A stretch of 64,000 bases of DNA from Spiroplasma taiwanense CT-1. Lineage in GTDB: Bacteria > Bacillota_I > Bacilli_A > Mycoplasmatales > Mycoplasmataceae. Position 1 is the stretch's first letter; the number at the start of each line of letters is the position of its first letter. The stretch is from positions 124,001 to 188,000 of the forward strand of contig NC_021846.1 in NCBI RefSeq assembly GCF_000439435.1. The letters are read 5' to 3'. Both the position numbers and the translations under genes were made by a program. Below the pieces are notes generated by a model. The model was not told the origin of the DNA. It saw only the letters and a list, made by a program, of their open reading frames with translations, and made no database searches. This document shows, piece by piece, positions 9,246-64,000 of this stretch.

Positions 9246-11162
9246 GTGTTATCGACAAGACAAGGTATATTAAGTGTAATAATCGGAACAACTATTTCCC
9301 TTTTTAACGCTATTATTCAATTTTTAACTATTTATTGAGTTTTAAATGCTTATGGAACAGAGTTTAATGGGTATATTAGATTAGTTAGTTCATTTTCTAC
9401 AATAATATCAGTAGCAGAAGGTTCCTTAGGAGTAGCTGCTACAATTCTTTTAGTGAAACCATTAGTACAAAATGATTGAATTAGTGCAAATGAAATTTAT
9501 TCAACAGCTAAAAAATATTTTAAAAAATCTGCTCTTATAAGTTTATTTATGGTTTTAATAATATCTCTTGGTTATCCATTATACGTTGGCATTTCGGCAA
9601 ATTCCACTGGTACAATTTTAAATCCAAAAAATTGAAATGATATTGGTTTAAATCTTTCAAATCAGGGAGAAAAAATTGGTTTTGCAAGTTATTATATTTT
9701 AGTTTTAATTTCTTTAATTTTTGGAACAAAAAATTTTGTTTCTGCTTATTGATTTTCAGTTTATGAAACAATTATTATTGCAGATAATAAAAATTCAGTA
9801 AGAAGAATTGTAATTTTATTTGCAGATATTTTTATTAGTGGAATTACTTTTTATTTATTATCAATAAAAGGAATAAATCCAATAATCCCTTTTTTGCCAA
9901 CAATATTATATTCACCAATAAAGGGTTTTATGATTTATTTTTATGTAAAGAAAAAGTATTTATGATTAAAATACTATAAAGATTTTAATAGTTTTAAATT
10001 AAATACTACAAGCAACAAAATTTTTTTTTCAACAATAGGACCGACTCTTTTATTAAATACTGATATAGCAATTGCTGCAATATTACTTGGACTTAATGTT
10101 TCATCATCTCTTTCTCTATATTTAGTTGTAGCTTTGAATACAAAACTTATTATGACAAATTTCATTGTTTCATTTAGAGAATTTTTTGTGACTCTTGTTA
10201 CAAAAAGAGGAAGAATCCATTGGGAGAGTTATGCTAAATATGAATTATATACTTATTTAGTGGCAGCATTTACTTTTATAAATATGTCAATTCTTGCTCC
10301 CTATTTTGTTAGTTCTTTATATGGAGAACTTGCAAGCTCTTCAATTTCAAATGATGATTTTGCTAGTATTAATGCTTTAGATTTTATGTTTTATACTTCT
10401 AAATTTTCAATTCTTTACGCAAGTATTGCATTATTAGCAATATTATGTGATGCACAAATGACTTTAATTCATGCAAAGGGTAGATATGGAGAAGTTTCAA
10501 AATTTCAAAATATTGTTGGAGTTTTATATTTATTGACGGCTATATTTATAACATTTCTTATTGTTACTCTAAAAATTGGAGGAGAGCAAAATTATTTAGT
10601 TACAGGAATTATTGTTTTGTTTTCTTTAAAACTTCTTTTTATGTTTATTAGATATATTTATTTATGAATTTATGTTTGAAAATATGCAACTTATAACTCG
10701 AACAAAAAATATATCTTTAATAATTTTTTAATTTTATTTTTACCAGTAATTTTAACTATATTATTAAATGTGCTTGTAATAAATAAAAAATTAGATATTA
10801 GAGAATCCACATCTGCCTCCGCTTCAATTGCACCATTAATTGCTTTATTTTTTGGAGCAATAATTTTATCACTAATAATTTTAGTTATTTTTGCATATAT
10901 ATGTGCACCAAAAATAATGAATGAAATTATGCAAAGACTACCATTAATTAATAAAATATTTTTAAAAAAATCAGTAGAAGCAAGAAAAAAAAGACTTAAA
11001 AAATACGGAATTGAAGCAGAGGATATTGTTGACAATAGCAATAAAATAACTCATTTAATGATTGATATTGATGAAGTAGAACCAATTATTGAATTAGGGA
11101 CAGAATTAAAATTAGATATAAATTCTCAAAATGAAAATATTTATATTGTAAAAGGAAAATAA
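9246..11162 (+). CDS. MOP-superfamily flippase-like membrane protein
   Basis: This 638-residue protein starts at GTG behind AAAGGAGGA. The N-terminus (residues 1-80) resembles polysaccharide flippases of the Wzx/RfbX kind: a first membrane helix, then YGTEFNGYIRLVSSFSTI. Some 12-14 hydrophobic segments run to about residue 545, then a cytoplasmic tail of about 80 residues that is highly charged and acidic near the end. Trp codons TGA are frequent. It lies 33 bases after the pseudouridine synthase gene. Such proteins move lipid-linked sugars or other amphipathic substrates across the membrane; in a wall-less organism a capsule or glycolipid substrate would be expected, but this is inference. 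Confidence 0.7.
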
Positions 11163-11240
11163 TAAAATCATAGAGCACAGTTTTCAATACAGTTTTTTAT
11201 TTTATATTATTGATAGAATATTTAAGATACGGAAAGAAGT

Positions 11241-14200
11241 ATGAATAAAATGGATGTAAAATTTTATTTAGATTTAAATTATCCAATTAGTAAAATGGAT
11301 GTTTTTTCCACACAGGGAAAACTAAAAATTAGAAAAAATAAAAATTCAAAGTTAAAGATAACTTTGAAATAAATTTTAAAAAAACTAATTTAAAGGGAAA
11401 TATTGATAATTTCATTATTGAATTAAATAACGATTTACAAAATTTTTCAAAATTAGAAATTGCAAATTTAGATTTAATTACCTTAAAAAAAGAAAATATA
11501 AGAAATTTTTTTGAATGAATGAGAAATTCGAAAAAATTTAATTTTAACAAATACTGCTTTTATTTTTAAGTTCTATGAAAAATTTCAAAACGAAATAATT
11601 AGTAAATATAATTCAAATTCTATTGTACTATTTACTGATTTAATGAAAAATGAAGATAGATACTACTATTTGGTTAAAAGGATTGAATTTATTAATTTTT
11701 CAAATAATATACTAAAAAATAATGAAATAATTAGTATTAAAACCATTTTAAAAAAAGTGTTGAAAGCGTAACTTTTTCAAATGATTTAGTTGATTTTTCA
11801 AATGATTTTAATAGTATAAAGAATTCATATTTAACTTTTTTAAATGTTTTATTTACTCATATTGAGCCAATTACAGATATATTTACTGTAAAAGAGCAAG
11901 AGTTCAATTTTTCTAAACTTTCAAATTTTGTTGAATTATTTAATAAATTTCTGGAAAACAAAAAAAGATTTTAAATATTTTTTTAAAATAATTAACTTGA
12001 ATGATTTATTAGAAGTAAAAGTTGATAACCCCAATATAAATTATAATAATTTATTGTTAATATCAGACAAAGAAGTATTTGGTTTTGAATCAAAATTAAT
12101 AGTTTTTTCGCCAAAAGATGAATGAAATAAAAGAACTTTTGAAGTAAATTCAAGTACCTTAATTAAAATTACTGATAAAGTAAAATTAATAGAAAAAGAA
12201 AAAATAGTTCTAGCATTTGAGTTAAGAAATGATGACCTTTTAAGACAAATAGATGATTTAAAAATTCAATTAAATTCAATTGAACAAAAAATTCAATTAA
12301 ATAAAATTGACTTAGAGAATACTTCAAGAAATATTGAAAAAATAAATAATGCTATTTTTAAAATTTGAAAATTTGGAAAACAAAATAATTAGTAATAACA
12401 ATAAAAAAATATTAATATTATTGAAGACACTTTAATTAATTTAAAAGAAGTAGAGAATGAATATTAGGAGTTAATACAAAAAAGTACTTCACTGATAAAT
12501 TTAAATAAAATAAAAAACGAAAGTTTAGATAAAAGTTCTATATTGAATCGTTCTTTAAATGAATATGAAAATATAAAAGTGGAATTAAAAAATAAATTGA
12601 AAAAAAATTTAAAGGAATATGAAAATAATAATACAAACTTAAATAAATTAAAAACTTGAATGAAAGATACTATAATAATTTTAGATAAATTAAAAGAAAA
12701 ATTTATTTTTAAATGCTACAAATTTTGATATGGGCTTAAAAACAAAATACAATAGATTTAGCAGAGCATTATATAATTTTAAAAAAGGTAATTATAGAAA
12801 CCCTTATTTGGCTTTAGCATTGACTAAACCTGAAATAGTAACTATTGGTGATAATTTTAATGATTTTGAATTATTAAAAATAAATGATCAACAAAAATAA
12901 GCTGTATATAATGCATTAAATACAAATGCAATTTCTTATCTTCAAGGTCCACCAGGTACTGGAAAAACTCAAACTATAACAAAATTAGCAGAATTAGTAT
13001 CTACTGATCTTGGTGAAAATATTTTAATAACATCTCAAACAAATGAAGCTATTCATAATGCTTTTGATAGAATAAGGGAATTTAATGATCAAAATCCTAA
13101 TATTTTTTATTACAAACCTTTAAAAAAGGAAACAAAAAAAGAAATATTTCAAAAAAATGAATATGAAATTGAAAATATGTACAAAATGTTTATTTATACA
13201 ATTTGTAATATTTATTTAAAAAAATCAAAAAATAATATTTATAAAGATTTTAAAAATATTTCAAAAAAAGATTTTTTACTTTGTCTATATATAGCTTGAA
13301 TGAATAATATGAATGCTGATATAGAATTAACTATGGCAAATTATGTTATTGAATATTTTTTAAATACAAATGTTGAAACAATAATTAATGACTCAAATGA
13401 AAATAATGAAGAAATAATAAAATTTATTATTAAAACAGAAAGGAGAAAGTATTATAATAAAAATTTAAAAAACCATTTAGATACTTTTTTGAAAACAAAT
13501 GAAAAAATTTTAAATTTATTTGGAAAAAACTTTATTGATATAATAGGGACTATAATAAATTAATGGATTTATATAGTGAAATTTATATAAAAAGAAAAAA
13601 TGAAAAAGTGTTATTTAAAAATTTATTGCATGATATATATGAAAAATTTAAAAAAGATTACTCAAGAAATATTTTTGATGAAGATATTAAATTATTTTCA
13701 AAAAAATTATTTGAAAATAATTTAATAAATATTTTAGGTTTAACAACAACTGCAAAACAGAAAATAAATTTTAATGAATTCAAAAAAGAATTATTTATTG
13801 ATTATCCAATTAATTATCAAATCATGGATGAAGTTTCAAAATCATCAACTATTGATGTAATAAATACTGTATTACTTAGTCATAAAATAATGTTGGCTGG
13901 TGATTATAAACAATTAACTCTGATTTATGAATTAAATAGAAAAAAATATTAAGGCATTTTATTAGAATTTAATGAATGACTTGAAATTAATGTTGATCAA
14001 AGTAAAAAAAATTTCAAAATAACAGAAATAGAAAATTTATTTACTTATCTTTTTTTTGCAGAGCATGCAAAAAATTAAAAAATTTTGATATAGAATTAAC
14101 TTCGTACAATTTTTTAAAAGTACAACATAGATTTACAGAAGATATTATGAAAATTGTAAATGAAGTTTATGATAAAAATGAAAAATTAAAAGTACCAAAC

Positions 14201-14889
14201 AATTATAATGAAAAAAAATTTCGAAAGTATAATTTAAATTACAATAATGATGTTATCTTTTTAGATACTTCTTTTATAAGCAAAAATTTTTATGACTTTT
14301 GAAATAAAAATAAAGTAAAAAGTAATTTACTTTTTAAACCAAATGATAAATCATTTGATCAATTAAAATCTTTATTTAATTTTACTCCTTTTGGTTCAAA
14401 AAGGTTTAATGAATTAAATGCATTTCATATAGTAAAAATTATTGAAAAATTAATTGAATCTAATGATTTTGCAATAGATAAATTAGATTTGGAAGTTATA
14501 TGTATGACAACTTCTCAAAAAGCAATTATAAAACAATTTCTTAAAATATTTAAAATTAGTGAAAAAATAATAAACAAAATAAAAATAGATACAGTAGATA
14601 ATTTTCAGGGAAGAGAAAAAAGAATAATTATTGTAGATTTAATAAAAGCTAAAAATTCTTTAAAGGAAAAAGGAGAATTATAAACTCTAAAAGAAAACTA
14701 AATTTTTATAAAAAAATTGAAAGATTAAATGTTGCAGTTTCGAGAGCACAAGAAAAGTTAATTATTGTTGGAGCAGTAGAAAATTATTTACGACATGAAA
14801 TCATTATTAATAATACAAAAAAAATTCTAAATATTTGGTTTAAAATAATAAATAATAATATGGGGGTAATAAGAACATGAGAGATATAA
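11241..14889 (+). pseudogene. decayed UPF1/DNA2-like SF1 helicase (cassette copy 1, gene A)
   Basis: This is a ruined relative of the intact helicase at 56289-60131. Helicase motifs survive in changing frames: Walker A GPPGTGKTQ (12946), IMDEVSKSS in place of IDEASK (about 13830), AGDYKQL (13900), VDNFQGRE (14599) and RLNVAVSRAQEKL (14727). The frame is lost by stops and shifts near 11370, 11570, 11770, 11970, 12390, 13560, 13950 and others; a nonsense TAA at 12898 sits in the helicase Q motif where the intact copy has a sense codon. The GDYRQLPP motif has lost its prolines. A start ATG with GGAAAGAAG upstream is still present. The N-terminal third resembles the intact copy only loosely. No functional enzyme can be made from it. 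Confidence 0.88.
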
Positions 14890-16648
14890 ATATTAGTATT
14901 GATTATCCAATTCCATATACATTAAATAAATTAAAATATGAAGTTTCAAGTTATATACCATTAAAACTAATTCAATCAATTTTTTTATCAATAATTATTT
15001 GTGAAAGTGAATTTAGAGATGATTTAAAAATATTTGATAAAGTTTCTGAAGTTATTGAAAAAATATTAAAAATTAAAAGTAAAAACCTTCTTTTAATTAG
15101 GGAGGAACTTCAAGAACTCTTGGATACTTCTACTGTTATTAATAAATCAAATGAAAAAATATTTTAAATTGCATTTTTTCAAATTTAACAATAAATAGTA
15201 AACTTGCTGAAAATATAAAAAATAAAAAATTTTACATGTTTCAAAAGAAAAAGCATGAAAAATCAATTATTTTTTTTAAACCCTTTTTTCCTAGTTTTGA
15301 AATAAAAGATAAATTATTACTATTAAATTCAAATGAATTAAAAACTAAATATATAAAAAAAATAAATTTAATAAATTCAAATGAATTAACAGCAATTATT
15401 GATGGTGAAAAATTTTTATATTTAAGTGAAGAAAGTGGAGTAGTAAATTCTTTACTTGAAGAAACAAAAATTGTATGATCAAATATAAAATTAAATTTTC
15501 AAGTTTTAGATAATAAAATAATTGCAAAAGATAAAATAACAGAAATAATAATTAATCATGTAAATGAAAAAAAAATTGCTTAAAAATTGTTTTGATTTAG
15601 TTGTAAATAAAATAGATGTAAATGATATTGTTTTTCATGAAACTGATTTTAATTCTGAGTTAAAAGAACTAACTTTTGATGAAATAAAGTATGAACTTAT
15701 AAATAATAAATTTTTAAATGACTTAAATTATCAAATTGTAAAATACAAATTAAGTTTTAAAAATAAAATAGAAGATTATTTTTATTATAATGGTGGTTTA
15801 TTAAAACTTGATTTAGAAAAATTTATATTTTCAAATTTAGAAAAAATTGATTTTGAACTATTTAATTTAATAAAAAATAATAATCTTTTGAAAATTTTAA
15901 AAAAACATATTATTCAAAATATGCATATAAAAAAATTTGAAGATATAATTATTAAAAATTTTGGAAAATTTAATTTATCTTATGAAGAATTTCTAAAATT
16001 GGCAAGTAAATTATCTTATGAAGATATTGAATATTATTGTTTTACTAATAAAATTATTTTTTCAAATAAAGAAAATGTTTATAAATTAATGAAAATACTT
16101 TCTTATACAGAAGAAAAAATTTACACATTAATAAAATGAACTTATGAAAATGATGAAGTTTATTTTCGACACTGAATTTTAGAAATAAACTTTTATAAGC
16201 AAAAACAAGCTTTAAATATGTTTAAAAATAAATATAATTAACTAAATATTAAGAAAAATATTTTAATTGAATTTAATAAATGAATAATTACCACCCTATA
16301 CAAGATAAAACATTAGAAAATGAAATTAAGAAAATAAATTCTATGAAATATTTAAAATCTAATTTTTCTATTGAAGAATTTATAAAACTAATAGATATAA
16401 GTTTTATAAATCTAAAAAATTTTATTTTTTCTAAATTAAATGATAAAAATTTAGATTTGGAAAAGGCAATAAAAAAATTGAATATTTCAGTAAGGGGGAA
16501 AAAGGATATATTACAAATTTGAAAACAGTTATTAAATTTTAAAAATATAAATAAAGAAAATGTATTACAAGAAAACATTCAAAAAATTATTCAAGAAGAA
16601 AAATTAATTTTTGAAAATATAGATAAACTAAAGAAAATAATTAAATAG
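14877..16648 (+). pseudogene. decayed cassette gene B (unknown function)
   Basis: It starts at an ATG behind GGGGG inside the end of the helicase remnant and corresponds in place, size and N-terminal pattern to the intact gene at 60142-62415. The open pieces are 14877-15167, about 15200-15582, 15564-16241 and 16280-16648, each in a different frame. The first piece begins with a beta-rich stretch followed by predicted helices, as in the intact copy; the later pieces are Asn/Lys/Ile-rich and helical. I recognise no enzyme motif in either copy. The multiple shifts and internal stops make it a pseudogene. Confidence 0.8.
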
Positions 16649-16660
16649 AGGTGAAATATA

Positions 16661-17655
16661 TGAGTCATACAGCAATTGTAATTGTAGGAATATGTACAAA
16701 AGTGGAAAGAATAATTTTGGAGGATTTAAACAATAATTTAGAAGAGATATTGAAAAATAAAAAAATTACAGAAAATTTAAGTATGAAAATTAATGAATTA
16801 AAATTTCAAATTCTATATTAAGTTTAGAAAAAATGGATAGTAATTTTGAAATGTTAAGTACGGAAAATGAAAATTTTACCAAAAATATAAATTTAAAAAT
16901 AGACCAAATTACAAAGAAAATAGTTAATTTAAATGAATTATTAGATTACCATAAAGTTTTTTTAATTTAATAAAAAATGAAAGTGTAGATATTTATCAAT
17001 TATTAATTTCCAATGGAATTTCTGCTAAAATTGCATATTCAAATTTACAAAATAGAAATTTCTTAATAAATTCTGAATTATTAAGAGAAGAAATATTAAA
17101 AGTGAATCAAAATTATTCAAATTTAAATTTAATAGAAAAATGTAAAAGCGAAATTTTGGAAAAACTTGCTAATGAAAAAATTTCAAATGAGTATAAATTA
17201 GCAATTGCAAATTTAGTCAATACATTCACAACAATGCAGGAAATTTCAGATTATGAAATTTATTTAAAATCACTTAAACAAAATGAAGTACGTACAAAAT
17301 TTTTAGTAGAAAATCAAATTGTTGCTTTAAAAGAAATGAAATTTGAACTTAAAAGTGTAAAGAATTTAATTATGGAGGAAAAAGGAAATCAATTAAAGCT
17401 AATTTTTAAAAAAGGTTAAGCTTTAAAAATAATAAAAATCAAAAATTGGATATTATTTTAGATCTTGGAGGGACTTTTGAATATGAAATGGGAAATTATC
17501 AAGGTCATTTGTGTTTTGAAGATTCAGATAAATTAAAAACTTTATTGATGAAAAAAGGAATACACTATAGTTCTTTAAAGATAACAAGAACAACCTCGGA
17601 GGCAAGACCTTTATTAAAAACTGCCAAAATATTGGAAAGGAAGAATAATAAATAA
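16661..17655 (+). pseudogene. decayed cassette gene C with DUF2997-like C-terminal module
   Basis: An ATG at 16661 follows GAGGTG. The frame breaks near 16800, 16970 and 17420. The pieces correspond to the intact 362-residue gene at 62417-63505: a long helical, coiled-coil-prone body and a short C-terminal module. The module here (17446-17655) reads GGTFEYEMGNYQGHLCFEDSDKL and so on in pattern: a Gly-x-Phe-x-Tyr strand, a G-x-x-C/Q turn, a D-x-x-K helix and a final GI. The intact copy has GSFIYNWEGFEGRQHDEDAK in the same place. This pattern reminds me of the small DUF2997 proteins, but I cannot confirm that. Its stop overlaps the start of the AAA+ gene by one base. Confidence 0.75.
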
Positions 17656-19439
17656 TGAAAAAATTATTAGAACAATTAAAAATAAAATTTCAACAAAAAA
17701 ATATTCTTATAGTTACAGGAAATGTTTATGATACATACATTTCAGACAAAAATGTTGAGTCGCTCATTAAAAATTTAGATGCATATATTTCAAAATATTC
17801 AATTGAGGCTGGGTATACAAGTGTATTAAAATACTCACCATCAAAAAAAATTATTCCTTTGATTGGTCATTACTCACAAGAAAATCAAGAGAATTCAGAT
17901 TATGAAATTAATAATGACTATTCAATTATTGATTTTATTGAACAAGTTTATAAGGAAATATCGGATAAAGAAAATGTTAGAAGAGTTTATATTATGGATT
18001 TTTCTAATATATATTTTAATTCAAACAATAATATTGAAATTTTAGTAAAAATTGCAGAATTATTATCTGCTCTTTTAGAAGAAAAAATTTCATCTCCTTA
18101 TGAAGTTTCAATGCTAAAAAAACAAAGTAAATTAATTTTAATTGCAAGAGATGGTGTCCATATTTTTGGTGATATAACAGAAAAAAATATTGAATATGCT
18201 TCAATTAATATTAAAAAACCTAATATTGAAGAAAGACAATGAATTTTTTCAAAATTATCAAACATTATAAATATTACTGATAGTGAAGAAATTTCAAAAC
18301 CAGGTTTTAAACAAGATGAAGCAGTTGCTTTAACAGACGAATTTTTATGTAAAGAAATTCTTCAATTAGGAAGAATAATGCAAGATAATAGTGGAACAAC
18401 TTTTAAAGAATTATATAATATTGTTCAATTCAATAAAAAGGAATCTGAATGACAAAGAATAAATTCTGAAAGTTTAAAAACATTAGAAAGTGATTTATCA
18501 AAAAGAGTTATAGGACAAGAATTTGCAATTCAAGCTGTAAGAAAAACATTAATTTCTTCTTATTTAGGATTAAATGGTGTAATGCATAGTGAAAATCTAA
18601 CAAAGCCTAAAGGAATATTATTTTTTGCCGGACCTACAGGAACAGAGAAAACAGAATTATCAAAAGCAATTGCAAAATTTATTTTTAAAGATGAAACAAA
18701 ATTAATTAGGTTTGATATGTCTGAATATTCTGCAGAACATTCAGAACCAAGATTGATTGGTGCTCCACCAGGTTATATTGGTTATGATAATGGTGGAGAA
18801 TTGACAAATTCTGTTAAGGAAAAATTTTTTTCAATTTTATTATTTGATAAAGTTGAAAAGGCGAATGCAAAAATTTTAGATAAATTTTTTACAAATACTT
18901 GAAGATGGAAGGTTAACCTCATCCAAAGGAGAATTAATTGATTTTTCCGAGACATTCATAATTTTTACATCCAATATTGGTTATTCTATGGTTTCTTCTT
19001 CAAATAATCAAGAAATAACTAGAAAAAACTTTATAAGAGCAGTAGAAGATCATTTTACAAATAATTTAAAAAGACCAGAATTATTAAATAGAATAGGTAT
19101 AAAAAATATAGTCCCATTTAATTTTATTAATGATAAAAAAATAATAAAAAAAATAACTTTAAATAAATTAGATAGATTATTTGATTATATTTATAAAAAA
19201 CATAATATAAAAGTTATACTTTCCAATGAAGAATTGATTATGGAACTTATTTCAGCGTATTATGATTCAAAAATGGAAGAAGGGGTATTGTAAATAGTAT
19301 TGATGATATTATTGTAACTTCAATATCTAATTTTATTTTTGAAAATATTGATTTAATAAATAAAAATAGAGTTGAAGACAAAATTACAAATATTACATCT
19401 ATTATTACAGGCCAATCTATTACTTGAAAATTAATGTAA
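17655..19439 (+). pseudogene. decayed Clp-like AAA+ ATPase (cassette copy 1, gene D)
   Basis: The frame is open from 17655 to about 18895, then shifts by one and again near 19290. The N-terminal 220 residues begin with NILIVTGNVYDTYI, matching AIIVEGNIDDIYEY of the intact copy. They look like a degenerate ATPase fold, with a predicted strand YIMDFSNIYF and a sensor-like LILIARDGVHIFGD. Residues from about 290 are ClpA/ClpB second-domain type: VIGQEFAIQAV, RFDMSEYSAEH, LIGAPPGYIGYD and FTSNIGYS, ending in the C-terminal Clp lid domain. Walker A is GPTGTEKTE instead of GPTGTGKTE, and Walker B is LLFDKVEKA instead of FDEIEKA. Both catalytic positions and the frame are therefore lost. Confidence 0.88.
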
Positions 19440-19447
19440 ACAGATAG

Positions 19448-19476
19448 AAAAAATCATTATTTTAATGATTTTTTTA
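19448..19476 (+). terminator. intrinsic terminator after decayed cassette
   Basis: AAAAAATCATTA and TAATGATTTTTT form a 12-bp stem with a three-base loop and a T run. It still marks the end of the former operon. Confidence 0.8.
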
Positions 19477-19525
19477 TTTAGGAAATGCATTTAAATCCAA
19501 TGATATAATAAAAAAGGTGATAAAA

Positions 19526-21145
19526 ATGACAAGTATTTCAATAATTGTACCCATTGCAGTATGTGCATTATATTTATTTACATTCTATACATCTGGATCA
19601 ATTTTAATTGAACTTTTTAAATTTAAAATTAAAAATTCTTTTGTAGCAATTGCTACAGGTTTTTTTACTTTTTTTACTTTTATCTCAATTTGTACATTTC
19701 CTTTACAATTAATTCCAGGATTACCATATGTTTTTTATATATATTATATTTTTGCAATTTCTATAATTTATTTAGTTTTTTCTTTTATTTTTATGAGATT
19801 TTGATTAAATACAAATTTTTTTAAATTGGATGCATTATTTTATTTTTTTGTTTTATTAATATTTTTGGTAATAAATTATTTTTCTTATAAGTATATTAGT
19901 AATGAAAACTTTAATCGTCATAAAAATGCTTTATCAATTCTTTTTTGATTAAAAGATAATCCAGTTTCATTTTTTGATAATTCGACATTATTCAACTTTT
20001 TAGGTTTCAAACCTTTTCAAGGATGATATTCATTTCAATTATCTCTTTTAATAATGGTGGGTGCAGAAACTTATCAATATCAAAATATGTTGGTGCCTTT
20101 TATGTTAATTATTGATGCATTTTTAGCAGCTTCAATTTTTTTAACTATCATGGAATCTTTATCAAATATAAAATTTGTAAAAAATAAAGCGTTTTTATTT
20201 TTTACAAGTTTAGTATTCTTTTCTGCTACAAGAATTATTTTATGATATTACAATTATTCAATTTGAGAAGGTCAAGTTATATTTATATATTTAATATTCT
20301 ATTCTATGATTTGGATATTAAGATATACAACTTTAAATTATAGAGAAAGATATAGCACTTTATTTATTGGGCTTGTAATTGGGGGTTATATTTCATTTCT
20401 TTGAGAAGGGTCATATCAAGTTTTATTTCTAATTTATACTTTTCTATTTACAATTCAGCGAAGATATAATAATAATTTCACAAAGGATATTTTGAAAATT
20501 GGATTATTTCCATTAATTGATTTTCTATTTTATAATATTATTTTACAGTTATATTTTCAAGTAATCTTGTTTGGAGCATTACTTCTTTTTATGTTTTTTG
20601 TTTCTTATTTAATGAGTAAAAAATATAGTGCAATAACAAAGTTTGAATTATTTTTAGAGCAGAGAAGTATTTTTGCTATTTTAATTGTTCCAATTATTTT
20701 AATTATAATTTCAATTGCAATTGCCTTAGGTTTAAATCAGAATTTTATTTCAGAAGAATATAATACTCTAAATTTTTTATATATTTGGTACTCTTTTATA
20801 AAAAATGAAATAGCAAGGCAATGAATTTCTTTTATTCTTTCTATGATAATTTTAGCACTAGCTTTTGCCTGGGTAATTTTTAGAAAAAATTTAAGGTCAA
20901 ATATACTTACAAGTGCAGTGGATTTAACATTAATTAGTTATTTAACTTTTTATAATCCAATTGTAATGAATTTTATTAGATATATATATTCAAATATGAT
21001 AGTTTCAAACGAACTTGCTATAATTAGTCTTGTTATTTGCTTAACAAATTCACTACCTTTTTATATTTTTAATAAAATTGATAATAAAAAAGTTAACCCA
21101 TTGGAAATAAAAATTATAAAAAAATATTCAAGATTGAAAATTTAG
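19526..21145 (+). CDS. polytopic membrane protein of unknown function
   Basis: This 539-residue protein is almost wholly hydrophobic, with about 12 predicted membrane segments and short charged loops. I do not recognise a family; no ABC, MFS or MATE signature is visible. Many Trp residues are encoded by TGA. The ATG at 19526 has AAGG eight bases upstream. A loop near residues 195-230 carries several aromatic residues (YNYSIWEG region). ligA starts ten bases after its stop, so the two are probably co-transcribed, although no functional link follows from that. A lipid- or sugar-handling membrane enzyme would be compatible with the topology, but this is only a guess. Confidence 0.8.
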
Positions 21146-56288: not shown

Positions 56289-59200
56289 ATGGCAAATATT
56301 ATAGAAAATAATAATGGAAAAGAAATTGTTTTAGACTTCTCATTTTTACAAAATGTACAATTTAAAGAGAATATTTCAGGTTTAGATCAGATTATTGAAA
56401 AATTAGAAATTAAAGGAATTATATCCTATAATGATTTTCATAATTTTTTAAGAAACTCATTAGTAAAAAAAGCTTTTTTATGTTTAATTGATAATAAAAC
56501 TAGGCAATTAAGTAAAAAGGATAAAACTAAGGAAACTTATGATGGAATAATTAGAGTTGAACTTGATTCAAGGAATCAGAGTTTATTATTAAATGGAACT
56601 TATTTAGGTTTTTTTGTCAATATTGATTCAAAAAATGCAACACTAATTATTAGTTCAATTTTTTTGACAAGGTTAAAACCTATTGCCCAAGAATTTGAAA
56701 CTGTTCTTAATGAATGTCAAATTTTACTAATTAGAAATCAAGGACAAATAAAAGAAGAAGAAATTCTCAGAAGAAATATTTTAAATTCTTCAACAATTCA
56801 AAAAATTGGAAGGCTAATTTCCACATTTGAAGAAGAAAAAAATAACTGAAATAAGTACTTAGAATTTTCTGAGGATTTACTAAAAATTAAAAGAAAAAGA
56901 TCTTTGCCTTATTTTAATTCTATTTTAAGTACTGTACTTAGAATAGATATAAATAATTCTAATTCAGAGTTACATAATTTTGAATTACATAATTTGAAAT
57001 CTTACACCTATAAATATTTAAAGTTAGATTCAGAAAATATTTTAAAAAAATTGAATATTCAATATGATAAAAAAATAGTTGTTTGTTTGGAAATACTAGT
57101 TGATGATATAGAAAAATTAAATAAGTTAAAAAAAATGCAGGATTTATCAATTGTTCCTTTTAAATTTAATAGAAATATTTCTACAACACATGAACTTTTA
57201 AAAGACATAAAAGAAATTTTTAATTTTGATTTTGAAAAAAATCATGAAGTAAGTCAAATTGTAAATTTATCAACAATGATTGGTGTAAATGAGACGAATT
57301 TAAATTTTTGAAATTATTGAGAAAATAAAAATATAATAATAGGTTCCAAAAAAGAATTAGAAGAATTGTTAGAAACAAATTTAGAAGAATTAAAAAAATG
57401 AAAAATTTTTAAAATAAATTTTGAAATTGATGAAAATTTTAATGAAAATCTTTTTAGTGTAAAGAATAATTTGGACTTTTTAACATCTGGATATTTGGCA
57501 TATACAGGTATTGGAGAAGAAGTTTTAATTGAAAGAGGAAGACAAGTACTTAAAAGAATTTCAGAAGGAAATACAAAAAACCCATATCTTATAAATTATC
57601 TTTTTAATACAAAATTAATTGAATTATCTGAAAATTCTAATGAGTTATATTTAAAGGATTTTAATTTTAATTTAAATAAAGAACAAAAAGATGCTGTTCA
57701 GAAAGCTATAAATTCAAAAGATATTTTTTTATTACAGGGACCACCAGGAACAGGAAAAACTCAAGTTATTTGTGAAATAATATTTCAATTATCAAAGTTA
57801 AATAGAAAAATATTAATTTCAAGTCAAAATCATGAGGCAATAAAAAATGTTATTGATAGATTGCCAATTGGTCCAAATCTTAATAAAATTAGATTAACAA
57901 ATAATATAGATTTCAATTCTTCTTTAGTGAATAATTTTTCACCTGATAGAGTTTTATATAATTATTATAAATCTATAGGTAAGAAAATTTTTGATGATGT
58001 TAATAATGATGAGAATTTAATAACAGAATTTCAAGAAATTAAAAATAAATTGGAAGAATTAATTATTTCAAATAAAAGTTATCATAAAAATAATACTCAA
58101 ATTAGAAATATTCAAAAAGATATTGATGAAATAAATAGGCAAATTAATTTAATTAATGAAAAAGAGATTAATAAAATTAAAAGAAAAAATTTTATAAAAG
58201 AAAATTTATTAAATATTAATAACTTAGTAGATTCTCTTAATGAAAAAGAATTTATAAGTGTATTAAATTTTTCAGAAATCATTCAGGAATTTTTTGATAG
58301 TTCAATTAAATTTGAATTATATAATTATATTTTTAGATACTTAAAATTTAATCCAGAAGATTTTTCAAATAAAATCTCTTTACTTAAAGAAGTAGTAAAT
58401 GAAATTTTTATTAAAAATGAAATTTTTATGGAAATTAAAAATATTGAAAAAAAAGTTCTTAATTATAAAAGACAAGCTGAATTTGATTTAGCAAATGAAG
58501 AAGAAAGTAGAAAAAAAGGTTTATTACAAATATTAAACAGAGATGTAAAAATAAATGAATTAAATCAAATATTTAAAAATTTTATTAGCGAATTAACAAA
58601 TCAAAAAAATAAATTGGAAGTTGAATTAATATCTTTAAGTGAGAAAAATATATATGAAGACAGTCTTTCAAATTTAGAAATTGATAAAAATAAATTACTT
58701 GTTGTTAAAAATAATTTAATGGAAAATATTGGGGATGGAACTAGAAAATTAAGAGAATTAATTAAATTAATAAATTTTAAGTTTAATTTAGATTTGGGAA
58801 TTACGGATGTAGATTTAGAAGAAAATTTAAAAAAAGAGTTAATAATAATTGAGAAAAAATTACTAGAAAGTAAGAAAAGAAAAACCGATTTTTCAGATAT
58901 TTATAAAAATATTACAGATTATTTAAGTGAAAATTATAAAATTTCTAATAGCACATTAGAAGAATTACCTACAAGGGAATTTTCAATTCAAATGTTTAAA
59001 GAAAGTCAAAGATATATTCAAACTGTATTAGATAAATTAATTAATGTTTACTCTATGACATTAACCTCTTCAAATATTTTTAGATTTAGTAAAGATAAAA
59101 TTTCAGCTAAACTTGGTCTTGAAGAATTGAATTTAAAAACAATGGATGTAGATGTTGTAATTATTGATGAGGCTTCAAAAGCAACCTTATTAGAAATACT

Positions 59201-60131
59201 AATGCCACTTGTTTATGGAAAATCTCTTATTTTAGTTGGAGACTATCGCCAACTTCCTCCAATTTTAAAATTACAAAATGCAGACATTGAGGAAGTTAAT
59301 GAGCTTTTTAAAAAAGATTATAACTATAATGATTTTTATGAGTTATTAGATTTTTCAGTTTTTAAAAAATTAATTTCAGCAAATAATAAAAATGTAACTT
59401 CCATTTTAAAAACTCAATATAGAAGTCATGAACAAATTATGGAAATTGTTAATAAGTTTTATGACAATCAATTAAGGATGGAAACACAAGTAAGCGAACA
59501 AAAGAAACATGATTTGATTATTTCTAATTCTTTAAAAAAAGAGATAATCAATTCAAGAAGCTCGGTTTATTGAATTGATTCTTCATATAAAAAAAATAAT
59601 GAAATTAATTTTGAACAAGGAGAAGAATATTCAACTAGTTTATTTAATGATCTAGAAATAGAATTAACAAATAAAATTTTAAAAAAAATAAATGAAGTAG
59701 TCGGAGAGAAAAATTCTATGGTTAAACCAAGTTTAGCTATTATAAGTTTTTATGGATTACATGTTAGTAAACTAAAAAAATTTATAAAATTAAGTAATTT
59801 TAAAAATTTAAATATTGTTATAAATACAGTAGATGATTTTCAAGGAAAAGAAGCAGATTATGTAATAGTTAATTTAGTTAGAAACCCTAAGAAATTATCT
59901 TCAAAAACAGGAAGAGAATTTTTAAAAAAATATGAAAGAATAAATGTTGCACTTTCTAGAGCAAGAGAGTTACTTATAATTATTGGTTCTGAGAGAAGTG
60001 TTGAAGATATTACAGTTAAAATACCCACTGTAGGAAATCCAAACTTATCTAATAGTTATGAAGTTTATTCTGAAATTATAGCAAAATTGAAATTTAATAA
60101 TAGTTTTTTAATACCAATAGAAATTGATTAG
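56289..60131 (+). CDS. UPF1/DNA2-like superfamily 1 helicase (cassette copy 2, gene A)
   Basis: This 1280-residue protein is open throughout. The first ~470 residues form a domain I do not recognise. The Q motif NLNKEQKDAV precedes Walker A GPPGTGKTQ (from residue 484). Motif II is VIIDEASKA with D960-E961, motif III GDYRQLPPIL, motif IV TQYRSHEQIM, motif V VDDFQGKEADYVIV and motif VI RINVALSRARELL. A highly charged insert of about 330 residues, with coiled-coil character, separates motifs Ia and II, as the 1B/stalk insert does in UPF1-like helicases. It should unwind RNA or DNA using ATP. ATG at 56289 follows GAGG. The next gene starts ten bases after the stop. Homologous to the decayed 11241-14889. 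Confidence 0.92.
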
Positions 60132-60141
60132 GAGTAAAAAA

Positions 60142-62415
60142 ATGATTTTTGATAAATTAGAAATAATATATGATAAACAATATATTCCATTAAAAATAAA
60201 ATATTCTGAAACCAGAAAACCAACATTTATGGAATTTTTATTATTATTAATTTTAATTGATTATCCAGATAAAACTCAAATTTTAAAAGAAGCACTTAAA
60301 TCATTTTTTGATGTAGAAAATATAAGTTTATTTGAAAAAGCATTAAGAGATTTAATTAATTACAAAATTTTAGATATAAACAAAAATAAAACAGGTCTTG
60401 GGATTTTAAATATGGATAGTCCAATTGAGTATTTTGAAGTGAATGATAAAATAAAATTTAATTTTGTAAAGTCTAATTACTCTATCTCCAATGAAAATAA
60501 ATCACAGGACATAAAATATTACTATGATCCAATTTTAAATGTGGAAGAAATTTTAAAAGAAAGAACCTGAGATAAAAGAATTAAAAATGTAAAAATTTCT
60601 CATAAATTATTGGTGAATTCAAATTTTGAAAAAAATATATCACAAAGTAAAATTAACTTAATGATTAAAAAATTTATAAATATAAATAAAGATATTTTTG
60701 GAGAAGAATGTTTACTAAAGGAAATAACAATTGACGAATATAATTCACTGGAAAAATTAAATTTTTTTAATGAATATATTAAATATGATTCAGTTGCAAT
60801 AGAAATAATGATAGAAATTTTTGAAAATGAATCCTTTAAAATTAAATCTGAAAATAAGGAATTTGAAAATTATTTAAGAAATAATTCAAATATTGCAAAA
60901 GAAATTTTAATTGATATTTGTAATCAATACGAAAAAAAACTTAAAAATAAATTTAGACCTGAACAAAAAATTATGAAATTAGAAAAATACAATTCAGAAT
61001 TGGATTTAATTTCGAATATAAATATTAAAACAAATTGAAATTTATTATTAATTAATGATCAATTTATTGAATCAGATACAGAATTTTTAAAAAATAAGGA
61101 ATTAATAAGAAATATTGATATAATAATTTTTTATAATTCAAAAAGAAACAACAGAAGTTTACAAAATTTAGAAGGAAAAATAGTAGTATATTTTGATTAT
61201 ATTGAAAATGAAATATTATTAGATAATTCATTTATTTATTTAGATTCACAAAATCATATGAGTGGTTTTTTAATAGGAATAAAAAATCTAACTACTATTA
61301 ATAAAAAAATTCCTGTAGTTTATTCTTATAAGAATCCAAAAATCAATTTAAATTTAATTGAAATTTTTGAAACTAGTATTAATTCTTTACTTGAAACTTA
61401 TAAAATAAGTCTAAAAAAATTAGATTATAAAAAGGCAGCAGAAATATTTACTGTTTTAGAAAGAATTGGTTTAGAAAAAGAAGTTGAAGAGATATCATTT
61501 TCTTATATTTTAGATGATTTAGAATATGGTGAAAAATATAATTCAATAAAAGAATTTTTAATAGAAGAAGATTATAAGAATTATTTAATAATTTTAGAAA
61601 GAATAGTTACAAAATGTATTATTGAAATTTCAATGAAAAAAAATGATGATGAAATTTTTGATATAATTTCAAAATTTAATTTCTTAAATACAAAAAATAT
61701 AATAAAAATATTTAACGAAATTAATATTTCAGAATCTTTTGAAAATATACTTATATTAAATAAATATTTAAAGTCTTTAAAAATTGATGGCTGGCGTATC
61801 AATATAAGAAATTCATTGATAAAATTAACAGAGTATTTCAAAAATAATAATAGAGCAGAATTATTTAATTTGGATGATTTTAATTCAGAAACTTGAATTT
61901 TACATGCTTCAACTTTAAATAAAATTGGAAATTTAACAAAAGAGCTTTATAATGAAAATTATAATTATGTGGAAAATAATTTTGAAGAATTTTTATCTTC
62001 ATTAATTGATTTAATTAAATCTAATGTTGAAATTGAACAATACGATAAATATTTATTAAATATTTCAGAAGCTTTGATTGATTTTTACAAAAATTTTTAT
62101 AAATATAAAACAAAAACATTATCTATTGAATCTCAAGAAGTTGTAAATTATAAAATAACATTAATGGCTATGAATTATTTGAGTAAACTTGAAGAAAAAA
62201 CTAACAGCTTAATTAGTAGTAAATATTATAATATGCCAATCGAGATAAAATTAGAATGAATCAAACATATTGAAAATAAAAGAGATGAAGTAAATGAAAT
62301 TATGAATAATAATGATATAGCTTATAAAAAAGCATTAAATATTATTTTTGGAAAAAAACAAAATTATAATAGTTCTGATATTGAATACTATAAAAATTTT
62401 TTTGGAGGTAAATAA
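60142..62415 (+). CDS. cassette gene B, unknown function
   Basis: This 757-residue cytoplasmic protein starts at ATG behind AGGAG, ten bases after the helicase stop. The N-terminal 100 residues look like two strands and then a winged-helix-like region (TFMEFLLLLILIDYP to FEKALRDLINYKILDI). A middle part near residues 310-395 alternates strands and helices (DIIIFYN, IVVYFDY, FIYLDS, KIPVVYS), and the rest is helical and rich in Asn, Lys, Ile. I see no HKD, nuclease or kinase motif. The strand-rich middle resembles a degenerate PLD-like fold only in outline. It is paralogous in position to 14877-16648. One base separates its stop from gene C. Confidence 0.85.
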
Positions 62416-62416
62416 A

Positions 62417-63505
62417 ATGAGTATGTCTGCAGAGGAAATTCTAATAAATTGTGAGAAACAATTTTCTTTTTTAAAAAAAGATATTGAAGTTTTAATTTCT
62501 TATATTAACGAATTACTAGCTCAGTGTAAAAAGATAGATAATTCAAATTTTTTTCAACAACAAATAAATTATTTTTTGGAAAAATTAAAAATTGAAAATA
62601 AAGAATTAATTGAAAATGCTTTTGAAAAAGAAATTTCAAGTGATGTTCATGTGGAAATTGAAAAGTATCATGAAATACAAAGATTTGCAGAGAAAAAGCG
62701 AAATAATATTACTGACTTAAAAACAAAAATATTTCTTTTAAAAAGTGATATTATAAAAAAAGAACAAATGCAAATAAAAAAATCATTAGAAAAAAATTAT
62801 TTTTCAAATATTTTAGATTTAAAAAAACAATTAATAATGAATTATAAAGATGATCAAGATAAATTATTTATTAAAAAATTATTTGAAGATAAAGAACATC
62901 TTTTTATAAATAAAAAGAAGGATAAAATATTGAGTTATATTTTTATTGAGTTAGAAAAATACAAAACTTCAAATAAAATAATATTCGAAGAAATAATTTC
63001 AAATTCGATAGAATTATATAAAGATGATCAAGATGTATTTGCAATAGTAAAAAATGAAATGAAATTATTATCAGAAAATAAAGATAATGAGAATATAAAT
63101 GAAATTATAAGTAAGTATTTGTATAATTCATCCAAATTGGCAGAACAAGAAGTTATTAGAAAAGATAATGTTTTAAAAATTGTAAATGCAATAAGAAAAG
63201 TTGGTTATATTGTTAACCCGAATAATATAAGAAAAATTAAACAAAAAAATCTTATAATTATACATGGAGAAAAAATTACAGGCGAAACTGCAGATTTTGC
63301 TGTTAGACATGATGGTAGCTTTATCTATAACTGAGAGGGTTTTGAAGGACGCCAACATGATGAAGATGCTAAAGCTTTTATAAAAAAACTTAAAGATTTT
63401 AATATTCATGCAAGCAATGAATTTAATAAGCAATATAGAGAACCAAAATATATTGCTAAAAGAAAAAAAGTAATAACTGAAAATAATACAAAGAAGGATA
63501 AGTAG
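62417..63505 (+). CDS. cassette gene C: helical body with small C-terminal module
   Basis: This 362-residue protein begins at ATG 62417 behind GGAGGT. I rejected an in-frame start 69 bases upstream because it lies inside gene B and has no ribosome site. Residues 1-250 are strongly helical and coiled-coil-prone, rich in Lys and Glu. From about residue 255 a compact part follows: DNVLKIVNAIRKVGY, then ETADFAVRHDGSFIYNW (Trp by TGA at 63332) and GFEGRQHDEDAKAF. The same module closes the decayed copy. It recalls DUF2997-type proteins that accompany Ycf46-like AAA ATPases, although this is from memory of the pattern. The AAA+ gene follows after eight bases. Confidence 0.85.
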
Positions 63506-63513
63506 GTAAAGTA

Positions 63514-64000
63514 ATGAGTACAAAAAAAAAATTAAATCAATTAAAAAATCTTATTGGAATTAAAAAGGCAATAATTGTTGAAGGAAATATTGATGATATT
63601 TATGAATACAAAGGAAGATATATTAATATTCATGAAATTATTTTTAATATTTTTGATGAAAAAAAGTATTCTGATAAATTTATATTTGATCAAAACTCTG
63701 GATTAAGAGGTTCAAAATTTTCAAATTTACTTTTAAATGATAATCAAATTTCTAATCAACAGTCTTTAAATGATTTTGAAGAGTTATTTTCTGATAATAC
63801 TCAGTCATCTTCAGAGGACTCTATAAAATTTAAAAAACCAATTGATTTTTTTTCAATTTTAAATAAAAATTTAAATAGAATAGATAATAAAAAAATAGTT
63901 TTTTTAGCAGATTATACTAATTTTGTTTTTGCTGATAATTCATTAGAATTAGAAGATAGAATTGTATTAACGGAATTTTCAAAATCATTAAAAGAATCTG
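63514..64000 (+). CDS. cassette gene D: AAA+ ATPase, N-terminal part (3' partial)
   Basis: The frame is open from ATG 63514 to the window end (162 residues). It opens with KKLNQLKNLIGIKKAIIVEGNIDDIYEYKG, similar to NILIVTGNVYDTYI at the start of the decayed copy, and has a strand with Asp, KKIVFLADYTNFVFADNS, matching VYIMDFSNIYFNSNN there. By homology the missing part should carry a Clp-type AAA+ module. Whether its Walker motifs are intact cannot be seen here. The acidic stretch around residues 85-110 is probably a loop. Confidence 0.8.
   Translation, partial: MSTKKKLNQLKNLIGIKKAIIVEGNIDDIYEYKGRYINIHEIIFNIFDEKKYSDKFIFDQNSGLRGSKFSNLLLNDNQISNQQSLNDFEELFSDNTQSSSEDSIKFKKPIDFFSILNKNLNRIDNKKIVFLADYTNFVFADNSLELEDRIVLTEFSKSLKES

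Follow-up and report, generated by a model that had tools for sequence, protein, structure and literature searches.

A decayed helicase and ClpB-like AAA+ cassette between two core genes of Spiroplasma taiwanense, from an unnamed and probably defensive operon family

The described systems closest to the locus analyzed here, a decayed four-gene cassette at positions 11241–19439 of a stretch of Spiroplasma taiwanense CT-1 DNA, are the defence systems Mokosh and Dodola. The stretch (hereafter the window) comprises 64,000 nucleotides of contig NC_021846.1, in a genome of two contigs and 1,086,278 bases in total. We refer to the decayed cassette as copy 1 and to an intact cassette that starts at 56289, 37 kb away, as copy 2. 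Both contain genes for a superfamily 1 (SF1) helicase, a large protein termed "mid" (gene 2, the "effector" slot), a coiled-coil protein (gene 3) and a ClpB-like AAA+ ATPase; cassettes with an additional radical-SAM gene are called type I, and those without it type II.

Mokosh is listed with a NERD or PLD domain (PMC10952713). The helicases of intact relatives of the cassette matched the PADLOC model MkoA with E-values of 5e-66 to 9e-96, and this MkoA-type SF1 helicase is a likeness to Mokosh; the N-terminus of a PIN-domain protein from Acinetobacter also matched MkoB, weakly (E = 1.1e-5), while type II proteins gave no match to MkoB in PADLOC. The cassettes differ from Mokosh by their extra AAA+, coiled-coil and radical-SAM genes, and intact proteins from type I, type II and plasmid-borne cassettes, when scanned against Pfam, showed neither NERD nor PLD. 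The likeness to Dodola (DolB) and PDC-M37 is confined to the ClpB-like AAA+ protein, which matched DolB (E = 6e-16 to 3e-21) and PDC-M37B (E = 1e-28); ClpB models scored far higher, and the likeness may reflect a common ClpB-type domain. The Dodola partner DolA is a DUF6414 protein, for which none of the cassette proteins scanned gave a Pfam or PADLOC match. Since neither NERD/PLD nor the Dodola partner was found, we file the cassette under neither system. No system name for the five-slot operon was found in the versions of PADLOC, NCBIfam and Pfam consulted, nor did any of the papers searched name it. It is probably an unnamed, RNA-targeting defence system related to Mokosh through its helicase and to Dodola through its AAA+ protein. 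With a probability of about 0.6, we read copy 1 as a type II accessory cassette that was inserted between two core genes and then decayed, its family most likely being a nucleic-acid-attacking defence.

Across the window TGA is read as tryptophan (code 4, as in a Mollicute), which rules out the standard genetic code. Under code 4, with tRNA clusters excluded, open reading frames of at least 200 amino acids cover 25% of 11241–19439 and 89% of the rest of the window. When the region was aligned, with frameshifts allowed, to an intact cassette of four genes in G001, another genome of the genus, it resolved into four collinear pseudogenes on the forward strand, which match the G001 proteins in order and over almost their whole length (helicase residues 82–1297 of 1300, mid 1–597 of 598, coiled-coil 1–341 of 341, AAA+ 1–600 of 600). 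The alignment scores for helicase, mid, coiled-coil and AAA+ were 1334, 342, 333 and 1476, respectively, against 41–121 for shuffled DNA, and the identities over aligned codons were 39%, 31%, 34% and 53%. Measured against shuffled proteins, genes 2 and 3 of copy 1 reached z = 21.9 and 17.0 with their G001 counterparts.

The first pseudogene, an SF1 helicase of the AAA_11/AAA_12 type (11241–14886), carries about 12 frame changes and three in-frame stops; its open piece at 14147–14680 matched Pfam AAA_12 (E = 3e-12). The second, encoding the mid protein (14877–16648), has about six frame changes and one stop. The third encodes a coiled-coil protein that starts with MSH and has a conserved C-terminal domain (16660–17655; about three frame changes, one stop), and the fourth a ClpB-like AAA+ ATPase (17655–19439; about three frame changes; Pfam AAA_2, E = 9e-27). 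Start codons and purine-rich ribosome sites are still recognizable, and at 17653–17657 the sequence TAATG overlaps the stop of the third pseudogene with the start of the fourth. The claim of a preliminary description of this DNA, that the region holds a decayed cassette with the same gene order and strand as copy 2 and with starts and overlaps still visible, was borne out. It is very improbable that the frames are not truly broken and that decay is mimicked by an error of assembly, a different genetic code or programmed frameshifting: the AAA+ gene does retain an open frame of 450 codons from its start, but roughly 24 frame changes are spread over all four genes, the first three of which also hold five in-frame stops, and the rest of the window, copy 2 included, is intact under code 4. 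For the AAA+ remnant and its G001 counterpart, nonsynonymous divergence (dN) was 0.37 and synonymous divergence (dS) about 1.1, which is near saturation, giving a ratio of about 0.3, against 0.05–0.15 for the AAA+ genes of intact pairs. Most of the divergence therefore accrued under selection, and the decay came later.

The AAA+ remnant of copy 1 is 51% identical to the proteins of G001 and G004, which are encoded at other loci, and 39% identical to that of copy 2. In the AAA+ tree it grouped with the accessory cassettes of these two genomes (support 89/95, the 89% bootstrap lying under the strict mark of 95), whereas copy 2 fell within the core clade. Only in their helicase and AAA+ genes are the two copies directly alike. 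Compared with the copy 1 remnants, genes 2 and 3 of copy 2 reached only z = 1.0 and 2.5 against shuffled proteins; their scores above shuffled DNA were a composition effect that disappeared with the protein baseline. Profile comparison gave a probability of 39% for the C-terminus of the coiled-coil proteins of the two types, and 80% for the N-terminus of gene 2 when only the first 150 residues were used, while full-length profiles of gene 2 yielded nothing significant. Beyond the helicase and AAA+ genes, homology is thus not detectable directly and is suggested only by these profile comparisons and the common gene order. For a direct comparison of the copies, this is the outcome that the preliminary description had set as refuting its reading. 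Neither copy 1 nor any of its close relatives has the radical-SAM gene, and a tblastn search with the copy 2 radical-SAM protein in 11000–19700 returned no match better than E = 0.29.

Judged by these comparisons of sequence, copy 2 is not the source of copy 1, which is instead what remains of a separate branch of their family, one with a patchy distribution. The preliminary description had called the copies the same cassette, which does not hold, copy 2 having a fifth, radical-SAM gene without counterpart in copy 1 and its close relatives; its view that they are very diverged and not a recent duplication is right. It had further proposed either an old duplication or a separate acquisition, followed by loss. 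An old duplication within this lineage, in which one copy arose from the other, diverged and then decayed, would account for a common gene order at two loci that one genome carries 37 kb apart, and for the homologous helicases and AAA+ proteins. We rejected it as highly improbable, based on the AAA+ tree, the lack of directly visible homology in genes 2 and 3 and the insertion site, which is empty in 18 of 19 relatives; copy 1 also has nearer relatives among other species' cassettes than it has in copy 2, and it lacks the radical-SAM gene. The same empty site and tree favor the acquisition.

The gene to the left of copy 1 (9246–11162, forward strand) encodes a membrane transporter-like protein and is a core gene found in 20/20 genus genomes. 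The gene to the right (19517–21145, forward strand) encodes a membrane protein and adjoins the left flank gene in 18/19 other genus genomes, with a gap of 19–104 nucleotides. Copy 1 is therefore an insertion in this lineage. The forward-strand terminator/promoter stretch of the flanking membrane-protein gene (19440–19516) can be aligned to the sequence between the two genes at six empty sites. The terminator noted in the preliminary description is present, but it may belong to the host gene and its assignment to the cassette is doubtful. From the alignment, the stretch is probably the pre-insertion intergenic region and lies outside the cassette, which seems to have entered just upstream of the left gene's terminator. 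In G003 the same flank genes are separated by others, including a gene for a MIP channel (L246:2695-5615), so that within the genus the site has received insertions on two or more occasions. Alternatively, a type II cassette might have stood at this site in the ancestor of the genus, with clean loss in nearly every other species. Genes or fragments resembling type II do occur in the genus members G001, G004, G005 (a fragment) and G003 (a partial set), but they sit at other loci, and the clean adjacency of the flanks in 18/19 species would demand many precise deletions, which makes this course of events improbable.

Type II cassettes were found in G001, G004, G059, G234 and Ureaplasma diversum. 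Copy 1 shows the type II order of helicase, mid, MSH coiled-coil and ClpB-like AAA+, and these five share with it the four genes, their order and the overlaps; unlike copy 1 they are open, apart from a broken gene 2 in G004. At four of these loci the cassette lies next to genes of defence type, linked to restriction-modification or abortive infection: AIPR, GHKL ATPase and Z1 genes in G001, HNH and a fused C5/N4 DNA methyltransferase in G004, ResIII and N6_N4_Mtase (a type III-like restriction enzyme and methylase) in G234, and an AbiEii-like AAA_21 gene and Fic in G059.

Several partial relatives were also observed. In Mesomycoplasma hyorhinis NZ_LR214949 a type II-like cassette (L159:5197-12551) is annotated as a series of short hypothetical proteins with AAA+ genes in parts; it has probably decayed in parallel, or else its stops are read through. 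G003 carries two tandem type II-like helicases and a gene 2 relative (L124:9606-18411), with no AAA+ gene found, and represents an incomplete or reshuffled cassette. A lone AAA+ fragment of 97 residues in G005 (L074:7053-7343), 63% identical to copy 1 and with an internal stop, is a further type II remnant. In G016, tandem AAA+ genes of 606 and 634 amino acids (L075:7266-10965) are distant relatives of the type II AAA+ and have no helicase alongside.

Copy 2 comprises, on the forward strand, an SF1 helicase of 1280 amino acids (56289–60131), a mid protein of 756 amino acids (60145–62415), a coiled-coil protein of 362 amino acids with a conserved C-terminal domain (62417–63505) and a ClpB-like AAA+ protein of 600 amino acids (63514–64000, continuing beyond the window), all intact. 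Its fifth gene, which overlaps the fourth and lies beyond the window (L006:10309-10905), encodes a radical-SAM/4Fe-4S protein of 198 amino acids (Fer4_12, E = 5e-34; Radical_SAM, E = 6e-12). Orthologues of its helicase and coiled-coil protein are each present in 20/20 genus genomes listed, the helicase being broken in G013. Copy 2 is therefore a core cassette of the genus, and it is inherited vertically. An AlphaFold2 model of its gene 2 protein (mean predicted local distance difference test score, pLDDT, 88) gave only generic helical-repeat matches, with no Foldseek match at E < 0.001 in the PDB or the viral library. In G013 the type I cassette is breaking up (L096:1898-11423), with helicase and gene 2 in pieces and the radical-SAM gene truncated. 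Just upstream of the helicase in two type I cassettes (L151:1989-2525, L154:2970-3512) lie genes for related small putative DNA-binding proteins (KLFERLVTKFSIKVNDLA), possibly regulators.

The five-gene order of helicase, gene 2, coiled-coil, AAA+ and radical SAM recurs in other Bacilli and on plasmids of Acinetobacter, Photobacterium, Polaromonas and Moellerella, where the operon is annotated as AAA domain, PIN domain, hypothetical, AAA family ATPase and 4Fe-4S; the Moellerella operon adjoins ArdA and an integrase. These plasmid operons resemble type II in gene order and in their AAA+ proteins (38–44% identical to type II), but unlike copy 1 they have a radical-SAM gene and a gene 2 that ends in a clear PIN_4 domain (Pfam E = 1e-19 to 7e-24). 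The type I cassettes of the genus and of other Bacilli share with copy 1 the homologous helicase and AAA+ proteins and the slots; they differ from it by the radical-SAM gene, by genes 2 and 3 that are not directly alignable, and by being universal in the genus. We place both types in one wide operon family, built of a helicase, an effector, a coiled-coil protein and a ClpB-like AAA+ protein, with or without an NrdG-like radical-SAM protein.

An N-terminal part of about 200 residues is common to the gene 2 proteins (profile probability 85–96%). In the gene 2 proteins of two of the Bacilli scanned, HEPN_MAE_28990 was found just under the cut-off (E = 1.2e-5) and DUF4145 over it (E = 4e-5). An R..LE...H pattern seen by eye in type II gene 2 was considered as a HEPN motif and rejected, as neither profile comparison nor a low-confidence model supported it. 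Operons of Ycf35/DUF1257, DUF2997, AAA+ and radical-SAM genes exist; DUF2997 was seen at the C-terminus of gene 3 under the cut-off (E = 0.05–0.17), in the right position in two relatives, and gave no match in the cassettes of Mollicute genomes. A genome scan with the AAA+ query returned mostly ClpB, and phage records gave two weak helicase matches but nothing related to the cassette. On a plasmid of Aristaeella lactis (L163:1-15681) a DUF4011 helicase, kinases, FHA, a phosphatase, a 4Fe-4S protein and a relative of the AAA+ protein are clustered, so that the pair of AAA+ and radical-SAM genes also occurs in a kinase-rich, conflict-type operon.

The gene inventory and order, the insertion of copy 1, its nearer kinship to type II and its decay are what we observe; how the parts would work together is drawn from knowledge of their domains. 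The SF1 helicase would act as a sensor that engages or unwinds foreign or aberrant RNA or DNA. Gene 2 would encode the effector, either an RNase of the PIN or HEPN class or else a derived protein occupying its slot. The coiled-coil and ClpB-like AAA+ proteins may assemble, remodel or switch the complex, with the radical-SAM protein adding a modifying step in type I.

Several points weigh against this reading of copy 1 as an inserted and decayed defence cassette. The defence role would here follow from the genes alone, the neighbour count stands without a chance baseline, and no defence neighbours were found beside the Ureaplasma diversum cassette or copy 1 itself. Neither a PIN nor a HEPN domain is detectable in gene 2 of type II or of Spiroplasma type I; a four-gene relative could conceivably be older and have been lost in the other lineages; and the conservation of type I as a core cassette could signal a housekeeping role. 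This last point leads to a distinct explanation, in which the family encodes cellular machinery for the surveillance of RNA or ribosomes, and type II is a redundant paralogous form that was lost for this reason. A helicase, an RNase-type domain and a chaperone-type AAA+ protein would also suit such a role, and type I is universal in the genus, vertical, and in several species fixed in its setting after leuS. The patchy distribution of the relatives, their presence on plasmids and beside defence genes, and the phage-defence helicases as their best matches in the defence library speak against surveillance, which we regard as unlikely, though it deserves serious weight.

For the defence cassette that we take copy 1 to be, the loss may mean that it no longer paid, or may belong to the general gene decay of the species. 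S. taiwanense has 65 annotated pseudogenes, against mostly fewer than 10 in related species, for which drift has been blamed (PMC5726471); the loss of copy 1 fits this picture and may not require a special cause. The decay itself is ordinary, an accessory defence-type locus being gained and then lost. The main value lies in the five-slot operon that it uncovered, common to Mollicutes, other Bacilli and proteobacterial plasmids, in which gene 2 carries a different RNase-type domain by lineage and one branch is core in a genus with reduced genomes. Tentatively, and at somewhat less than even odds, one genome may hold two states of an unnamed, widespread and modular immune operon, a core-domesticated branch and a mobile, dead one. 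With similar reserve, the operon could be described as an SF1 helicase, a swappable RNase effector, a coiled-coil adaptor, a ClpB-like AAA+ protein and an optional NrdG-like radical-SAM protein. If so, the radical-SAM protein would mark a mechanistic split of the two branches. If the function is immunity, the core cassette would be a rare, near-universal innate system in Mollicutes, in which the role of the radical-SAM protein would be directly testable.

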